From: a virus
DNA: 21,684 nt
Strand: one strand, 5' to 3'
IMG/VR virus record: IMGVR_UViG_3300050120_000013
Coordinates: 1 to 21,684 of that record
The notes beneath the pieces are model-generated. The model was not told the DNA's origin. It did no database searches and saw only the letters and a list, made by a program, of their open reading frames with translations. How positions within the stretch are numbered: position 1 is the first letter of the stretch; each line of letters opens with the position of its first letter. Below, one piece after another: positions 8,009 through 17,032 of this stretch. A program made the translations under genes and the position numbers.

Positions 8009-8048
8009 GATGCCGAACGAAGATTCGAAAAACAACAGGGGAAGTGCC

Positions 8049-8234
8049 GTGGCTCTAAAAAAATGCAATGAATGCAGCCGGGAAATCAGCACCAGCGCGA
8101 TTACGTGTCCAGGATGCGGGGCCTACTTGCACCGCAAGACCGTGCGGCTCATGCTTCTAGTTTTCTTCGGGCCGATCATTGCTCTCTTCGTCGGGCTGCT
8201 GGGCGTTGCCGCCTGGTACGGAATCGCCGGCTAG
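8049..8234 (+). CDS. Small zinc-ribbon membrane protein (opposite-strand moron)
   Basis: I choose the GTG start at 8049 (61 residues), because AGGGGAAG sits 5-6 bases upstream and related zinc-ribbon proteins begin with M-A-L-x-K-C. A longer frame starts at ATG 8010 without a clear ribosome-binding site. C-x-x-C pairs at residues 6/9 and 20/23 (K-K-C-N-E-C, I-T-C-P-G-C-G-A) form a zinc ribbon. Residues about 30-58 are one hydrophobic membrane segment (L-M-L-L-V-F-F-G-P-I-I-A-L-F-V-G). It is the only plus-strand gene inside the structural region: convergent with the tube gene (stops 3 bases apart) and divergent from the chaperone. That is the layout of a moron, a cargo gene expressed independently. 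Function unknown; similar small proteins occur widely in proteobacteria and phages. Confidence 0.72.
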   Translation: MALKKCNECSREISTSAITCPGCGAYLHRKTVRLMLLVFFGPIIALFVGLLGVAAWYGIAG

Positions 8235-10663: not shown

Positions 10664-11503
10664 TTAAAAGTTGAAAGAGATACTCGGTGCATCGGTGGGC
10701 AGAGACGATCCGCCGTAGACGTTGACCGTCCAGGTGGTCGCCTGCGGCACCGTGCTTGTTACCGTGGTTGCGTACTCGACCTCGTAGAACAGGTCGTAGC
10801 GATAGAGCAGCGCTTTCTGCGTCTCATCGACCGGCGTGCCATTGCGATAACGCACCCGTGCGCCGAATCCATCCGGCATCGGGATGCGCCGCTTCTGCGC
10901 TAGCCCCGCGCGGATCGCGCCCATGATCGTTTTGCGATTGGCAGGAGTCGAGCACCAGACCGTGATCTGGTAGACCTCCTTCTGCCGCGACCACTCAGCG
11001 GCCACAGTGGATACCGTGCCCACGCGCGCCACAATCGTGGACGAGTTCGGGATGCTGATCACAGCGCCGGCCGATGTGCAGGGCCGGTTGACCACGATCA
11101 ATGCAGCGAGCGCCGCGGCGATGCTTGCCAGCGTGTCAGCCGGTTTCACGCCATACGCATACGCCACGTCATCAACGATGATCGCGACGTTCTGCGGCGT
11201 CGTTACGGTGCCAGAGAGCGTGGCCGTGATGCCGGTCACGTCCCAGTCGAGCGTTGCGGGCGTCGCGCTGATCCGCTGATTTGTGGTCGGGTAGCGCGTC
11301 GTGTTCTGGCCGCCGGGTAGGCAGTAGATCGAAACGTGGCTTTTTGTCGCCCGCAGATCGTTATCGAGCACCGATTGTGTCGGCCAGCCCGGATAGCAGA
11401 TGATGTCGTTGCCGGTTACCGATGGCGCAGACGTGCCGTTCGGATAGACGAACGTCGTCATCAGCGTGGCCAGTTCGGTCATCACATCGAAGGAGTCTGC
11501 CAT
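10664..11503 (-). CDS. Tail-terminator-like neck protein with inserted beta domain
   Basis: The 279-residue protein begins MADSFDVMTELATLMTTFVYP. Residues 1-85 and 169-279 look like one domain of a tail-terminator/neck protein: V-S-I-Y-C-L-P-G-G, then Q-I-T-V-W-C-S-T-P-A-N-R-K-T-I and L-L-Y-R-Y-D-L-F-Y-E-V-E-Y. Position just upstream of the sheath fits such a protein, which caps the tube. Residues about 90-168 are a likely insertion (A-T-L-S-G-T-V, V-A-Y-A-Y-G-V-K-P-A-D-T-L-A-S-I-A-A-A-L) of the kind seen in phage surface domains. The start overlaps the endonuclease stop (TAATG). Family naming is moderate and structure prediction would settle it. Confidence 0.6.
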   Translation of the reverse strand: MADSFDVMTELATLMTTFVYPNGTSAPSVTGNDIICYPGWPTQSVLDNDLRATKSHVSIYCLPGGQNTTRYPTTNQRISATPATLDWDVTGITATLSGTVTTPQNVAIIVDDVAYAYGVKPADTLASIAAALAALIVVNRPCTSAGAVISIPNSSTIVARVGTVSTVAAEWSRQKEVYQITVWCSTPANRKTIMGAIRAGLAQKRRIPMPDGFGARVRYRNGTPVDETQKALLYRYDLFYEVEYATTVTSTVPQATTWTVNVYGGSSLPTDAPSISFNF

Positions 11504-12153
11504 TATGTCTGCGCCGCCTTATCGGCACGCTTGCGAGCCGCAGAAGCCGAAACTTTTGCGCCGATCTTTGCGCGCGTTTCCGGTGACACAGAGCGGCCTT
11601 TTAGAGCTTTCGATAACGTGGCGCAGTGCTCTTCGGTCAATTTCCGCCCCGCCTGAGCTGCCGACATTTTGGCTAGCGTTTCAGGAGAATGCTTCTTTCC
11701 GGCCATTGGTCCGGGGCGCCCTTTCAGGGTGGCTGCGATTTTTGCTCGTGTTTCTTCGCTGTGCGGCTTCCTTGGGTACGGAGCCCTAGCCTTCCCCGCT
11801 GCCGAGATTTTTGCCCTCGTTTCCTCGGTAGGGACGTATCCCCTCTGCCCCTTGCCTCCATTGGAAACATTCAGCAGATCACTTCCGACTTCCACCCGGT
11901 AATGCGCGATCCATCGAATCTCTGCATCTTGCCAACACGATCCATCGGGGACGCGCTCTAATACATGAATCCCGGGCACCATATCGGCATCGATTATTTC
12001 GGCAAGCCAAACGTTCTTTCGGACTCTCTTTTCTCTTTGGGCCTTACACCCGAATATGTGGCTAGCGAGACGCTTTGCTATCGACATATCGGTCTTGCCG
12101 ACGTACCGCACTTGCCCTGTCGTCGGGCATGTCAATGCATAAATGATCGTCAT
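11503..12153 (-). CDS. GIY-YIG homing endonuclease with NUMOD3 repeats
   Basis: I place the start at ATG 12153 (216 residues; MTIIYALTCPTTGQVRYVGK), which overlaps the TGA of the preceding gene by ATGA; the GTG frame from 12183 is an extension into that gene. The catalytic GIY-YIG domain (1-about 100) shows I-I-Y-A-L and R-Y-V-G-K-T, the conserved Arg in K-R-L-A-S-H (about 28), Glu in W-Q-D-A-E-I-R (about 78) and Asn in L-L-N-V-S-N-G-G. The C-terminal half has repeated NUMOD3-type units (S-E-E-T-R-A-K-I, S-P-E-T-L-A-K-M, S-P-E-T-R-A-K-I) which bind DNA. It is a free-standing mobile endonuclease inserted between two neck genes, without its own visible promoter. It likely promotes its own spread among related phages. 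Confidence 0.9.
   Translation of the reverse strand: MTIIYALTCPTTGQVRYVGKTDMSIAKRLASHIFGCKAQREKRVRKNVWLAEIIDADMVPGIHVLERVPDGSCWQDAEIRWIAHYRVEVGSDLLNVSNGGKGQRGYVPTEETRAKISAAGKARAPYPRKPHSEETRAKIAATLKGRPGPMAGKKHSPETLAKMSAAQAGRKLTEEHCATLSKALKGRSVSPETRAKIGAKVSASAARKRADKAAQT
11505..11515 (-). repeat. Flanking short repeat, left copy (endonuclease stop end)
   Basis: ATGTCTGCGCC on the plus strand at 11505-11515 matches ATGTCTGGGCC at 12152-12162 in 10 of 11 bases. On the minus strand each encodes the last residues and stop of a gene (A-Q-T then stop). The two copies bracket the endonuclease gene almost exactly, so this may be the trace of the insertion or of the repair that followed it. Confidence 0.55.
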
Positions 12154-12791
12154 GTCTGGGCCTGAATCGAGGTAAGCCGCCACCCGAGATCAGTAAGTTC
12201 AGCGCTGCTGATGATGTAGCGGCGCGTCAGGTCGTCGGTGATGATGTCGCCGGTGCGCAGTGCGACGCCGGGGAAATAGGGGAACAGGACGGCCCACCAC
12301 GGGTTACGGACGTCGCCCGGCAGATCGGTATCGCCCTTCTCGCCCTTCGTGCCTTGCAGGACAGATGCGGGCCATCCGGTCATCAACACCGTTTCATTGG
12401 CTACCGTGTCGCCGCCGTAGCCAACGGTCCCGGTGCCGGCCAGTTGCTGCGGACGCAGGACGTTGATCGTCCGATTGCACTCCACCGCCAGAATCGGCAG
12501 CAAAGGCTGCATCGCGGCGATGAAGAACGTTCCGCTCGCGCCGATGAGATAGTCGCCGACCGCCGTCAGCCTGCCGTCGACCAGCGCGAACCAAAGCGGC
12601 TTAGCGTACGGATTCGGCTTGCTGTACTTCATGTCCTGCGCGTTGAAGCTGGCGTTCAGCGTGGCGATCGGTGCGCCGGCGACAGGGTTTGTCGCGCTGG
12701 TCGGGCGGAATTGGTTGAACGGGGTGCCGATGTATTGGGCGGACTTGGCGTACCCGTAATAGATCTTGCTCTGGAGAAAGGCGCCGTCCAT
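12150..12791 (-). CDS. Head-closure-like neck protein
   Basis: The 213-residue product starts MDGAFLQSKIYYGYAKSAQYI. It has L-V-D-G-R-L-T-A-V-G-D-Y-L-I and F-F-I-A-A-M-Q-P-L-L-P-I-L-A-V-E-C-N-R-T-I-N-V-L-R-P in the middle and D-I-I-T-D-D-L-T-R-R-Y-I-I-S-S-A-E-L-T-D-L-G-W-R near the end. Such G-D-x-I-T-D-D-x-G-x-R-Y-x-V patterns occur in head-closure (stopper) proteins that join portal to tail. Its place between the adaptor and the tail-terminator-like gene fits this function. It begins 1 base after the 49-aa gene and ends with ATGA onto the endonuclease start. The C-terminal ending A-Q-T is duplicated at the endonuclease end. The specific name is a moderate inference. Confidence 0.6.
   Translation of the reverse strand: MDGAFLQSKIYYGYAKSAQYIGTPFNQFRPTSATNPVAGAPIATLNASFNAQDMKYSKPNPYAKPLWFALVDGRLTAVGDYLIGASGTFFIAAMQPLLPILAVECNRTINVLRPQQLAGTGTVGYGGDTVANETVLMTGWPASVLQGTKGEKGDTDLPGDVRNPWWAVLFPYFPGVALRTGDIITDDLTRRYIISSAELTDLGWRLTSIQAQT
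12152..12162 (-). repeat. Flanking short repeat, right copy (end of head-closure gene)
   Basis: ATGTCTGGGCC on the plus strand is the partner of the copy at 11505-11515 (10 of 11 identical). It covers the final A-Q-T codons of the head-closure gene and the ATG/stop overlap of the endonuclease. Confidence 0.55.
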
Positions 12792-12792
12792 C

Positions 12793-12942
12793 TCAACCCG
12801 CTACCCAGCACTTAGCCGCCGTCCAGTCGTGCGCACGATTTAGCCATTCCGGCCCATCCCAAGGGAATGCGAGCAGCGGATGAATGACGGCGTTGTGGAC
12901 AAACTTCCAGAAATAAAAGCCGAAGTTTCGGTTTGGTTCCAT
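12793..12942 (-). CDS. Small conserved phage protein (49 aa)
   Basis: The gene starts at ATG 12942, overlapping the stop of the Ntn-hydrolase (TGATG), with GGAG 8 bases upstream. A longer frame from 12975 has no support. The product begins MEPNRNFGFYFWKFVHNAVI and ends with H-P-L-L-A-F-P, then a W/L-rich part A-H-D-W-T-A-A-K-C-W. The V-H-N-x-V-x-H-P-L and H-D-W-T-A-x-K motifs are familiar from tiny phage and bacterial proteins of no known role. Its stop lies 1 base before the head-closure gene. Function unknown; possibly a small neck or regulatory factor. Confidence 0.65.
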   Translation of the reverse strand: MEPNRNFGFYFWKFVHNAVIHPLLAFPWDGPEWLNRAHDWTAAKCWVAG

Positions 12943-13370
12943 CAAAGCTCCAGGGTGTCGATGCCGTTCCCGCAACCAGTCTCAAACTGGCAAGCAACAA
13001 GGACCGCATCAGCGGCGCTCCGTCCCAGATACATCGTGGCTATGGCGAAGTCCCTGCCCGAGCCAATGGCATGAAACGGGTCTTCCATCTCAAATGGATA
13101 GGGGCTTTGCGCGTAGATCCATACCGTGCCGTCGTTCCGAACCACGAGCACGCTTTGGTATTCATCCGTCAACTGGAAAGCGGGGATTGTTTCAGGCCGC
13201 GCGCCGCTCTTGATCCATTCGAACATGTGCGCTGCATGCGAGCCTGTCCCGGCCGAGCCGAACAGACCGCCATCGAAGCGCCTTATCTTCGTTGTCGTGC
13301 GGCGCAATCCGGACATGTCGCCGAGTTTGTCAGCCGCGAGCGTGCGGCCATCCCAAGCTACGATCGTCAT
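12942..13370 (-). CDS. Proteasome/HslV-like Ntn-hydrolase (phage)
   Basis: The start is ATG 13370 (142 residues, MTIVAWDGRTLAADKLGD), just after the adaptor stop; a longer frame from 13457 is unsupported. Removal of Met would expose Thr-2 as the N-terminal nucleophile. Matching the HslV/proteasome beta fold: T-I-V at the N-terminus, A-A-D-K near 12-15 (the Asp position), T-K-I-R-R near 27-31 (the catalytic Lys position), F-G-S-A-G-T-G near 37-43, and A-I-G-S-G-R-D-F-A-I-A-T-M in the C-terminal half, like HslV A-I-G-S-G. Such proteins cut peptide bonds in rings. It lies among neck genes of the operon, overlapping the next small gene. It could process a virion protein; the substrate is unknown. 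Confidence 0.8.
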   Translation of the reverse strand: MTIVAWDGRTLAADKLGDMSGLRRTTTKIRRFDGGLFGSAGTGSHAAHMFEWIKSGARPETIPAFQLTDEYQSVLVVRNDGTVWIYAQSPYPFEMEDPFHAIGSGRDFAIATMYLGRSAADAVLVACQFETGCGNGIDTLEL

Positions 13371-13372
13371 AT

Positions 13373-13768
13373 TCAGCCCCGCATTACCGAAATGCTGCCG
13401 CTTCCCAAGCCGGGGCCGGGCGCAAAGCCGATGAATCCACACATGCGACGGCGCCATGAGTCGAAAAGTCTGTCGCGATCTGCTTGCTCACGAGGATTGT
13501 GAGTCCATACCGCAGCGACAGATGTATCGAGGTTTGCGCTCGCGCCCGGAATGGCTGATTCCAGCGTGTATAGATTCGTGAGGTACGTATTGATGAGAAC
13601 GGATTCTTCGCTCGCCGAAAGGGTCGTGAGACGCGTGTACAGCGACATGATGACCATCCCGAACTGGCCGTAGACGAGATCCTGGTCATTCGTGATCGGC
13701 ATCGTCGTACCGGCAAGTTGATAACCCATGAACCGGCGCACGTCCGTCATTTGGGCATCAGTCAGCAT
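13373..13768 (-). CDS. Head-tail adaptor/connector-like protein
   Basis: The 131-residue product begins MLTDAQMTDVRRFMGYQL and contains a mostly helical body (Y-T-R-L-T-T-L-S-A-S-E-E-S-V-L, L-Y-T-L-E-S-A-I-P-G-A-S-A-N-L-D-T). The C-terminal part has A-V-W-T-H-N-P-R-E-Q-A-D-R-D-R-L-F-D-S-W-R-R-R-M-C-G-F and a Gly-rich tail. This layout is common in tailed-phage proteins that sit directly after the capsid and bind the portal underside (adaptor role); the name is inferred from position and helical fold. GGAAG lies 7 bases before the ATG. It lies between the 59-aa gene and the Ntn-hydrolase, with 2-base gaps at both sides. Confidence 0.6.
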   Translation of the reverse strand: MLTDAQMTDVRRFMGYQLAGTTMPITNDQDLVYGQFGMVIMSLYTRLTTLSASEESVLINTYLTNLYTLESAIPGASANLDTSVAAVWTHNPREQADRDRLFDSWRRRMCGFIGFAPGPGLGSGSISVMRG

Positions 13769-14010: not shown

Positions 14011-14682
14011 TCAGTCTTGCTCTGCTGCTTTCTTTGCGCGCTTCGTTTCCCACGCCTTCAAAGCTCTCGCGCTGCGCTGCTCCTGCGTCTGCGATGCGGC
14101 GAAAGCGGTCAATTTCTCTTTCGTCTCGGCAGAGTGCTTTCTCGCCAACGCGGCGAGACGCATTCTTTCCTTCGTTTCAGGCGAGTGGGTCTTGCCAGTC
14201 ATCGTGCCGGGGCGCCCTTTGTTGGCGGCGATTACTTTGGCGATATGTTCGGGAGACTTGGGCTTGCCCTTAAGACCATGACTGATCTTTTCGCGTTCGT
14301 GCTGAGGAGCCACACGTCCGCGATTTCCAGCCCATATCTTGGCCATCATATCGGGACAGCGCGGGACGCCTTTGCGCGACTCGCTCAGCGCTTGCGCAAT
14401 CAATCTTCTCACCCAGCCGAATGCCTTGTTGCATGGGCGCATTCCACGATTACTCATGGTCATCGCCATCATGCCGAAAACCAGACCACGCTCAGTCGGG
14501 TACATTTTGACGAGCAATTTGTGTGCAACGAAATGCTCTTCCGCCGTCAGACGAACAAGGTTATCTGATTTGTCGGTGCCACCCATGCAGCGCGGAATGA
14601 CGTGATGAATCTCGGTGTATTCAGTGGCGCGCCTATTGGTCGCGCGCGCCATCAACCGATCATAAATCTTCGAGTAATCCAT
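14011..14682 (-). CDS. HNH homing endonuclease with NUMOD3 repeats
   Basis: The start is chosen at ATG 14682 (223 residues, MDYSKIYDRLMARATNRR), the usual beginning of this family; an in-frame ATG at 14721 adds 13 residues. Neither has a strong ribosome-binding site. The HNH motif is clear: E-I-H-H-V-I-P-R-C-M-G-G near residues 24-35, D-N-L-V-R-L-T near 40-46 and E-E-H-F-V-A-H-K-L-L near 48-57. The rest has NUMOD3-type repeats (S-P-E-H-I-A-K-V, S-P-E-T-K-E-R-M, S-A-E-T-K-E-K-L). It sits directly after the capsid gene and before a terminator, a known target zone for such mobile genes. It moves by cutting related phage DNA lacking it; it has no virion role. Confidence 0.9.
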   Translation of the reverse strand: MDYSKIYDRLMARATNRRATEYTEIHHVIPRCMGGTDKSDNLVRLTAEEHFVAHKLLVKMYPTERGLVFGMMAMTMSNRGMRPCNKAFGWVRRLIAQALSESRKGVPRCPDMMAKIWAGNRGRVAPQHEREKISHGLKGKPKSPEHIAKVIAANKGRPGTMTGKTHSPETKERMRLAALARKHSAETKEKLTAFAASQTQEQRSARALKAWETKRAKKAAEQD

Positions 14683-14768
14683 GCGGGAAATGAGAGCCGG
14701 CAGTAGTTTGACGGCCCTCATTGTACCGTCAATTCATGCAAAATAGCACGAATTTATTACAACCAAAA

Positions 14769-16040
14769 TCAGCTGAACAACGTGGCAATATGATTGGATT
14801 TGATGGCTTGAACGCCCCACGCCAATCTCACATGATAAACTAATTGCAAGAATTGGCGATACACGGCCACGTCGAATACGAGTTTCGTCACCGGATCCGT
14901 AACCTGAATCACGTCATCGGCCATATCCATCGCCTGACCATCCGGACCAACCGGCATTGCAGGCGCGCGGGTGATCAATTGAATGGCAGAGCGGGTGAAG
15001 GAAACGTTCGGCGTTGCCGATGCACCTACCGTAACCGCGGTTGCCGAGCCAGCGATGGCCTGACGCAGGCCGGGCGCAGCCAGCGAGATTGCCCCCGGAG
15101 CCGAAATTCCTACCTGCACTACGTACTTGTTTGTGTCGCCAGCGAACGTAACCGTATCGCCAGCGAGAACGGTACCGGTACCGGTGATCAGGTTGATGGT
15201 CTGCGCGCCGACGGCATAACCTGCCGTGTCAGTCGTGTAACTCGCGCCAGTGCCCTTCGTGACGGCCTGAACGGCGTTCGAGTTGTGCAGCATCTGGCCT
15301 TCCAACTCGCCGATGGTGCCTTGGCGGAGCAGTTCGGATGTGCCAGCTTCGTTCACCTTGAACAGCACGTTTTGCTTGCCGCGAAGGTTGGCCATTGCAG
15401 CCGAGCCCATCACCATATGCAGATCAGTCTGCGGCGCGCCGTTATCGTCCAGGATCTTGCGAACCTGTGCGATGTCCGACAGATCGCCAGCCGTGCCGAA
15501 CGGTGCCGTGCCAGGCGTACCATAGGCACGCGAGGAGTTTTGGTATGCAGTCGTCCACAGATCCGTCTCGATCTGGTTTGACAGCGTGCGGAACGCCTGC
15601 GCGAACTGGTTCATCAGCAAGCCGCCGTAGCTGCCTGCGTTGATCAAGCCGCGTTGCTCTTCACCATTCCAGCGGATCGGATAGTGCTTCGACTTGCTGA
15701 TGGTCATGGTCACGTTGCCAACCGTTTCGTCGCCTTCATTCGGCGCGGTAACAGCAGGCGTATTGTCTGCCAGAGCGGCTTGCGGTGCGATCGGGATCAT
15801 GATCGTCTGATTCAGCGCGGCACGTTCGCCCGAGCTATTGCGTGATACTGCAGGGATAAAGCCGACCAGTTCGCGCGAGACGACGTCCAGTGCTTCATAG
15901 ATCGTCGGCACGAGACCGGTCAAGGTGTTCGCGCCCAACACGAGACCTTGACGGGCCATGAAGTTGAACAAGTGCGCATGCGCAATCAGCGCATAGGCAC
16001 GAATGTGCAACTTGACTTTGGAAAGGGAAGACGTTTTCAC
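14769..16040 (-). CDS. Major capsid protein, P22-coat-like
   Basis: The 423-residue product is read from GTG 16040, which has AGGA 7 bases upstream; the later ATG at 15959 lacks a ribosome-binding site. The N-terminal arm is basic (K-V-K-L-H-I-R). The region A-N-T-L-T-G-L-V-P-T-I-Y-E-A-L-D-V-V-S-R-E-L-V-G-F-I-P-A-V is characteristic of P22-coat-like capsids. The body includes M-V-M-G-S-A-A-M-A-N-L-R-G. A Gly/Thr/Val-rich segment (about residues 270-345) could be an I-domain-like insertion. It follows a scaffold gene and precedes the HNH gene. The fold would be the HK97 type. Confidence is high for the role, good for the family. Confidence 0.9.
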   Translation of the reverse strand: MKTSSLSKVKLHIRAYALIAHAHLFNFMARQGLVLGANTLTGLVPTIYEALDVVSRELVGFIPAVSRNSSGERAALNQTIMIPIAPQAALADNTPAVTAPNEGDETVGNVTMTISKSKHYPIRWNGEEQRGLINAGSYGGLLMNQFAQAFRTLSNQIETDLWTTAYQNSSRAYGTPGTAPFGTAGDLSDIAQVRKILDDNGAPQTDLHMVMGSAAMANLRGKQNVLFKVNEAGTSELLRQGTIGELEGQMLHNSNAVQAVTKGTGASYTTDTAGYAVGAQTINLITGTGTVLAGDTVTFAGDTNKYVVQVGISAPGAISLAAPGLRQAIAGSATAVTVGASATPNVSFTRSAIQLITRAPAMPVGPDGQAMDMADDVIQVTDPVTKLVFDVAVYRQFLQLVYHVRLAWGVQAIKSNHIATLFS

Positions 16041-16147: not shown

Positions 16148-16957
16148 TCAGTCGTTGAGCGTTGCTTTGCCGCCGCGTACGTCTGCGGCAACCTGGGCTT
16201 GTCTCGTGGGATCAAACGTGTTGAACTCGGCGCGCGAATACGCTTTCTTGCCGCCCGAGCCGGCGCCACCGCTGGCACCCGACCCGCTCGCGCCCGAGCC
16301 CTTCATGATCTGGTCGCGGTGCGGGTAGTTCTCGACAAGCGTTTCGAGTGCTTCATCGAAATCAGCGAGATCGCCGGGGCGAACGCGGGAGAAAATCTTG
16401 TTGCCGGTCGCGTCATACGCAACCGTTTTTCCTTCTTCAATCTTGAATGCCTTGCCGAAAGCGGCTTTGGCTATGTCGCCGGGAATGGCGAGCTTGTCAG
16501 TGATGAATTTGGACCGATCGAAGCTGCCGCCAATGCGCTCGTCATAAAGCGTGGCTTGCAGGCCATCGCGCTCGGCTTTAGTGCGCGTGAGCTCTTCCGC
16601 ATGCGACTTGTTGGCCGCCGTAACCTGCTCTTCAGCGGCACGTTTGGCTGCGGCCTTGATCTCTTCGACCTTGCTAGCAGTCATCAAGTCGCCATCCTTG
16701 ATGTTCTTAATGGTCTCAAGCGCTTTGCGCGCTGCATCAGCGTCCTCGATGCCATCGAACAACTTGGCGCGCGCCTCGGCAGCTTCCTTGGCTTCTCGAT
16801 GCGTCTTCGCTTCGCCGTTAAGGCGCGAAATGGTGCCGATCGTGCTATCACCGTCGAACGGTGTTTCCTTGCCGTCGGCGTGAACGAAAACCGGCAATTT
16901 CTGGCCGTTTACTTCTTGAATAACGATACGGCCTTCAGCGTCGTACTTAAATGGCAT
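16148..16957 (-). CDS. Capsid scaffold protein (Lys/Glu/Ala-rich)
   Basis: The start is ATG 16957 (269 residues, MPFKYDAEGRIVIQEVNGQK), preceded by AAGGAAAG at good spacing. An in-frame start at 17002 lies in a stretch without a ribosome-binding site. Residues about 50-160 are strongly helical and charged (R-E-A-K-E-A-A-E-A-R-A-K-L, I-K-A-A-A-K-R-A-A-E-E-Q-V), followed by a Ser/Gly-rich linker (G-S-G-A-S-G-S-G) and a C-terminal end rich in basic residues that would bind the capsid protein. This composition and place, between portal and capsid, indicate an internal scaffold. No protease domain is visible. The intergenic 107 bases to the capsid gene (16041-16147) hold nothing clear. Confidence 0.82.
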   Translation of the reverse strand: MPFKYDAEGRIVIQEVNGQKLPVFVHADGKETPFDGDSTIGTISRLNGEAKTHREAKEAAEARAKLFDGIEDADAARKALETIKNIKDGDLMTASKVEEIKAAAKRAAEEQVTAANKSHAEELTRTKAERDGLQATLYDERIGGSFDRSKFITDKLAIPGDIAKAAFGKAFKIEEGKTVAYDATGNKIFSRVRPGDLADFDEALETLVENYPHRDQIMKGSGASGSGASGGAGSGGKKAYSRAEFNTFDPTRQAQVAADVRGGKATLND

Positions 16958-17032
16958 GATCTTTCCTTGGTCATCCGACCGTTTTCGAGCCATCCGGCCC
17001 AATACGCCGTGCCTATCCAGGCGAGCGGCAAT

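Follow-up and report, generated by a model that had tools for sequence, protein, structure and literature searches.

A PPH-type proteasome homologue carried as an optional gene between adaptor and head-closure genes of a phage with a P22-type coat

Gene order around the proteasome homologue

The stretch of viral DNA analysed here (the window; 21,684 nucleotides, IMG/VR record IMGVR_UViG_3300050120_000013) carries, in the order of transcription, genes for the small and large terminase subunits, a portal protein (phrog_145), a scaffold-like protein, a P22-type coat protein and an HNH homing endonuclease. These are followed by genes for an adaptor-type protein, a protein with a Met-Thr start that we assign to the PPH family of proteasome homologues, a 49-residue open reading frame (ORF), a closure-type protein, a GIY-YIG homing endonuclease, a further neck or tail protein and the sheath (Table 1). 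The preliminary description had located the PPH gene between the adaptor and head-closure genes, which holds true except that the 49-residue ORF intervenes before the closure gene; this ORF had no family match and was not found in related loci. The closure-type protein matched the folds of XkdH, the Chi neck protein and the Pam3 neck protein, albeit weakly (E about 0.01-0.04, probability 1.00). No hslU partner was recognised among the window proteins that were examined, and a DNA-level search for the neck region in phages gave no match.

The translation of the PPH gene reads MTIVAWDGRTLAADK...TKIRRF...AIGSGRDFAIA...CGNGIDTLEL*. Because the longer in-frame starts (ORF 12942-13457) would run into the adaptor gene, because the adaptor stop codon lies 2 nt ahead of the PPH start, and because an ATG is present at the aligned Met in 89 of 94 non-redundant homologues, we take the annotated ATG to be the correct start.

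Two further features of the window deserve mention. The adaptor, PPH and closure genes are flanked by two NUMOD3 homing endonuclease genes that interrupt the gene string, and such endonucleases may help to mobilise neighbouring genes. A lone plus-strand ORF of 74 residues lies among tail genes of the opposite strand; with its zinc-ribbon-like start (CxxC...CxxC) and a hydrophobic C-terminal stretch, it looks like a moron.

Table 1. Coordinates and family matches of features in the window.
Feature	Coordinates	Strand	Family	Remarks
Scaffold-like protein	16148..17002	-	phrog_784, weaker phrog_206; DUF6651	
Major capsid protein	14769..16040	-	P22 coat family (phrog_283, PF11651)	
HNH homing endonuclease	14011..14721	-	HNH/NUMOD3	Inserted between capsid and adaptor genes
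Head-tail adaptor-like protein	13373..13768	-	phrog_14539 (unknown function in PHROGs)	Role from gene order
PPH-type proteasome homologue	12942..13370	-	phrog_1040	142 aa; T2, D14, K28; oxyanion-type G41; GSG 103-105
49-aa ORF	12793..12942	-		ATG overlaps PPH stop codon (TGATGG)
Head-closure/neck protein	12150..12791	-	phrog_14605	Weak fold resemblance to neck stoppers of phages
GIY-YIG homing endonuclease	11503..12183	-	GIY-YIG/NUMOD3	Inserted past head-closure gene
Lone ORF, moron-like	8010..8234	+		74 aa

Family, fold and catalytic residues

The preliminary description regarded the protein as HslV-like. Among the profile families, the phrog_1040 'peptidase HslV family' matched over residues 1-141 of 142 (E=3.3e-27). 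Searches with the single sequence gave no match in Pfam, a weak match to HslV in the set of PDB proteins (E=0.06), and a sub-threshold match to the NCBIfam HslV equivalog TIGR03692 (E=0.14). Because the latter reached 11.9 bits versus a cut-off of 157.75, the protein is judged not to be HslV itself. When a family profile was used instead, the solved structures of BPH, the proteasome beta subunit and HslV were all matched at 3e-7 to 1e-5, the top match being BPH (5ovs, 2.9e-7). At E<=1e-3 we found 184 records of phage relatives, many of which are already labelled HslV-like protease, and at least 276 stretches of viral contigs contain a PPH. It should be noted here that a scan of genome contigs with the single PPH protein gave no relative, while an alignment-based scan did find relatives, mostly on proteobacterial contigs.

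The family PPH was described by Fuchs, Alva and Lupas as a proteasome homologue of about 140 residues that occurs in phages (Caudovirales) and their hosts, that has neither helix H2 nor a propeptide, and whose genomic context gave no functional clue (PMC8665760). Our assignment of the window protein to this known but functionally uncharacterised family is based on shared features (about 140 residues, no propeptide, a Thr after the Met, occurrence in Caudoviricetes and proteobacteria) and on the phrog_1040 match rather than on the PPH alignment of Fuchs et al. The resemblance to HslV noted beforehand thus stands for the fold and the catalytic triad, but not for HslV proper, since the protein belongs to a compact phage family without H2. 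That the protein is little studied was borne out, as the open-licence literature searched contained no functional study of a PPH. Longer variants exist as well: in large Vibrio, Klebsiella and Aeromonas phages we observed PPHs with a C-terminal extension of about 130 residues (L015:5001-5831, L016:3974-4888, L018:3974-4846, with L numbers denoting our loci), and these resemble the RPC class of Fuchs et al.

The fold prediction that the preliminary description had proposed as a check recovered the Ntn fold. An AlphaFold model built from a 97-sequence alignment reached a pLDDT of 97.7 and a pTM of 0.91, and the best Foldseek matches in the PDB were HslV, the archaeal proteasome beta subunit and BPH (E about 1e-8, probability 1.00). 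In the model, helix H1 (residues 43-54) is followed only by a four-residue helix (64-67) ahead of the strand at 73-78, and in the profile alignment HslV has an insertion in this region; helix H2 is accordingly missing from the modelled protein. The profile alignment also places D14 and K28 on Asp17 and Lys33 of HslV, so that the Asp, the Lys and the A-I-G-S-G motif (GSG 103-105) indeed occupy the places expected from HslV, and alignment, model and Foldseek together place equivalents of Thr1, Asp17 and Lys33 within an Ntn fold. Conservation was assessed in 94 relatives that are less than 70% identical (the nr70 set). Asp14 is present in all 94, the Lys28 column holds a Lys in 93 (the exception, L014, has an adjacent Lys), and position 2 is a Thr in 92 and a Ser in 2, which confirms the previously noted Met-Thr start. 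The family moreover has a conserved C-terminal region of its own (C133, G134, D138). A codon comparison of the window PPH with its closest relatives gave dN values of 0.14-0.26 against saturated dS, as expected for a protein under strong purifying selection. Taken together, the identification as a proteasome homologue stands well above what chance would give. We predict that the window PPH is very probably an active relative of the proteasome.

Presence, absence and placement among related phages

To define related loci, viral contigs were searched with the closure protein and with the adaptor, and 128 loci holding both were retained; a search with one Ad1 adaptor returned only near-copies. 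A PPH gene lies between adaptor and closure genes in 29 of the 128 loci, or in 13 of 87 when near-copies are removed, and in most loci without PPH in this slot the adaptor and closure genes are within about 14 nt of each other. Three pairs of near-identical phages differ at the slot by one PPH cistron only, with adaptor and closure unchanged: L186/L184 (flanks 91% identical upstream and 88% downstream), L102/L104 (96% and 89%) and L003/L113 (90% and 96%). Among 41 whole records with an empty slot, 31 were without any PPH and 10 had one elsewhere; since records may be fragments, single absences are soft and some are possibly false, but the paired comparisons are unaffected by such incompleteness as far as the slot itself is concerned. 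PPH is an optional, dispensable accessory gene, being absent from sister phages whose head and neck genes are the same. The pairs thus present a strictly conserved enzyme core that is carried as an optional gene.

All 10 displaced PPH genes share the strand of the head region and lie immediately upstream of that region as fetched; in the four records that were examined, terL or the portal gene follows at a distance of some 1.2-2.5 kb. This site upstream of the terminase region (records of L127, L137, L141, L142, L156, L158, L159, L160, L163 and L170) is a second preferred location of PPH.

The gene also occupies the same junction in phages with other necks. In the nr70 set, which is biased towards the nearest relatives of the query, 9 of the 94 PPHs follow the adaptor family phrog_14539, 8 of these being seen directly before phrog_14605, and 12 come directly after phrog_477 (the Ad1 family), of which 11 are immediately followed by phrog_161 (the Hc1 family). 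The adaptor–closure junction thus houses 21 of the 94 across two neck families, and the other 73 are found in different contexts. As no homology was detectable between the two adaptor families or between the two closure families, PPH has repeatedly settled at a junction that is structurally the same although the necks are unrelated. Elsewhere, PPH genes were found beside the holin/endolysin genes in phiSD1, inside the tail genes but on the other strand in Jedunavirus and PEi21, between terL and the portal gene in Sinorhizobium phage phiM5, and, in large phages, close to PhoH and RIIA; other neighbours are tRNAs and NAD synthesis genes. The PPH gene moves between genomic places. On the tree of adaptor plus closure sequences (87 distinct rows) presence changes at least 9 times, 6 of the changes being forced by well supported branches, and on the PPH tree at least 20 changes among three slot states are needed, although such counts do not tell gains from losses. 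A single old insertion that was inherited vertically was rejected, given at least 6 forced changes in the adaptor and neck tree and at least 3 for the slot in the PPH tree.

In one lineage (L212-L216; L212:5372-5743), the same junction holds a different protein of 124 residues with the HExxH motif VHEATHVWQ, which belongs to phrog_882/phrog_1365 of unknown function. Relatives that keep the motif occur in the head gene strings of the P22-coat phages Synechococcus phage Ssp-JY42 and Pasteurella phage Pm86. The idea that PPH and the HExxH protein replace each other genome-wide was discarded, as phrog_882 was present in only 1 of 30 records, and this one had been chosen for carrying it.

Possible functions and comparison with known systems

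The preliminary description had suggested that the protein might process a virion or host protein, no canonical prohead protease being present in the window. Its placement among the head and neck genes, with which it is tightly spaced, would suit a maturation protease whose trimming target is a neck, scaffold or tape-measure protein, as would the use of one junction in two unrelated necks and the presence of the HExxH protein at that junction in one lineage. However, the coat of the window phage is of the P22 type. Capsids of this type mature without scaffold cleavage, the P22 scaffold leaving intact and being reused (PMC3185693), so that no prohead protease is expected and its absence calls for no substitute. 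Phages that share the head and neck genes can do without PPH, as is evident from the filled and empty pairs and from its absence in most relatives with the same adaptor and closure genes. In addition, many PPH genes are far from head genes, and in the phiM5 record the portal, scaffold and capsid proteins are flagged as detected in particles, but PPH is not. The P22-type coat, the sister phages without PPH and the mobility of the gene together make a maturation role quite unlikely. That PPH has landed repeatedly at one late gene boundary may reflect either selection for late expression or a genuine link with the neck; late expression from a permissive boundary could explain the recurrence equally well as a neck-linked role, and the dispensability of PPH argues against an obligatory one. 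It is highly doubtful that the junction is a recurrent peptidase slot, filled by PPH, independently in phages with unrelated necks, or in at least one lineage by the unrelated metallopeptidase-like HExxH protein, that provides a conditional proteolytic step at the head-tail joint or late in infection in some hosts only.

Two other readings concern the biochemistry of the protein. PPH could borrow HslU, the AAA+ unfoldase of the host, for which it would serve as proteolytic subunit, so that ATP-dependent degradation is redirected. This would agree with its HslV-like fold and active site, and the occurrence of PPH in phages without an HslU gene (PMC7823757) is compatible with the use of host HslU. 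The H2 region with the basic cluster at the pore entrance of HslV (Arg86/Arg89/Lys90, PMC5777263) is missing in PPH, however, and the sister protein BPH functions without HslU (PMC5777263), and we therefore consider such borrowing very unlikely. A non-protease Ntn hydrolase, that is, an amidohydrolase or a connectase-like peptide ligase that is perhaps monomeric and has a small molecule or one specific peptide as its substrate, is suggested by the unusually compact core of PPH and by the inclusion of the monomeric ligase connectase among the proteasome homologues (PMC8665760), as well as by the conserved PPH-specific C-terminal region, which has no known role. Yet the triad and the GSG motif match those of the proteolytic members and the closest solved relatives are peptidases, so that this option seems unlikely.

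The reading that we favour, and hold to be reasonably probable, is that PPH is an HslU-independent, late-expressed accessory hydrolase that acts on a host or intracellular target. In this mechanism, the host methionine aminopeptidase would remove Met1 and expose Thr2, which would serve as the nucleophile together with Lys28 and Asp14 in subunits that assemble as a ring. The protein would be translated late, together with the packaging and head proteins, and would probably work without HslU because the H2 region is lost and because BPH sets a precedent. Its target may be a host or intracellular protein or peptide, which would make PPH an accessory (cargo) function rather than an obligatory factor of virion maturation, and most plausibly it would eliminate a defence or stress factor of the host. 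PADLOC, which covers defence rather than counter-defence, gave no defence link for PPH. Because the gene is optional, a knockout should be viable, and comparisons of hosts, rather than of virions, can be used to look for the substrate. If PPH removes host defence proteins, this would be a new viral use of the proteasome fold, in a family of which PPH has been termed the first true viral branch.

With HslV (ClpQ), PPH has the fold, the triad and the GSG motif in common, but the two are only 18-20% identical and H2 is absent in PPH. The prohead proteases (S78/U9/U35-type) are, like PPH, encoded in the late head gene string, but differ from it in fold and position. P22-type capsids do without them (PMC3185693). 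BPH, like PPH, has no propeptide and no known unfoldase, but it has retained H1/H2 along with a pore loop that is long and acidic (PMC5777263), whereas PPH is without H2. The PPHs described previously (PMC8665760) and the member in the window are alike in their length of about 140 residues, the missing H2, the lack of a propeptide, the Thr/Asp/Lys triad, and the Caudoviricetes and proteobacterial prophage context, and as a protein the latter has nothing to distinguish it. Neither the pairs with and without the gene nor its repeated placement between adaptor and closure was found described in the open-licence literature searched, including the text of PMC8665760. New here are the recurrence of PPH between the adaptor and closure genes of two unrelated neck families and the pairs of phages in which this junction is filled or empty.
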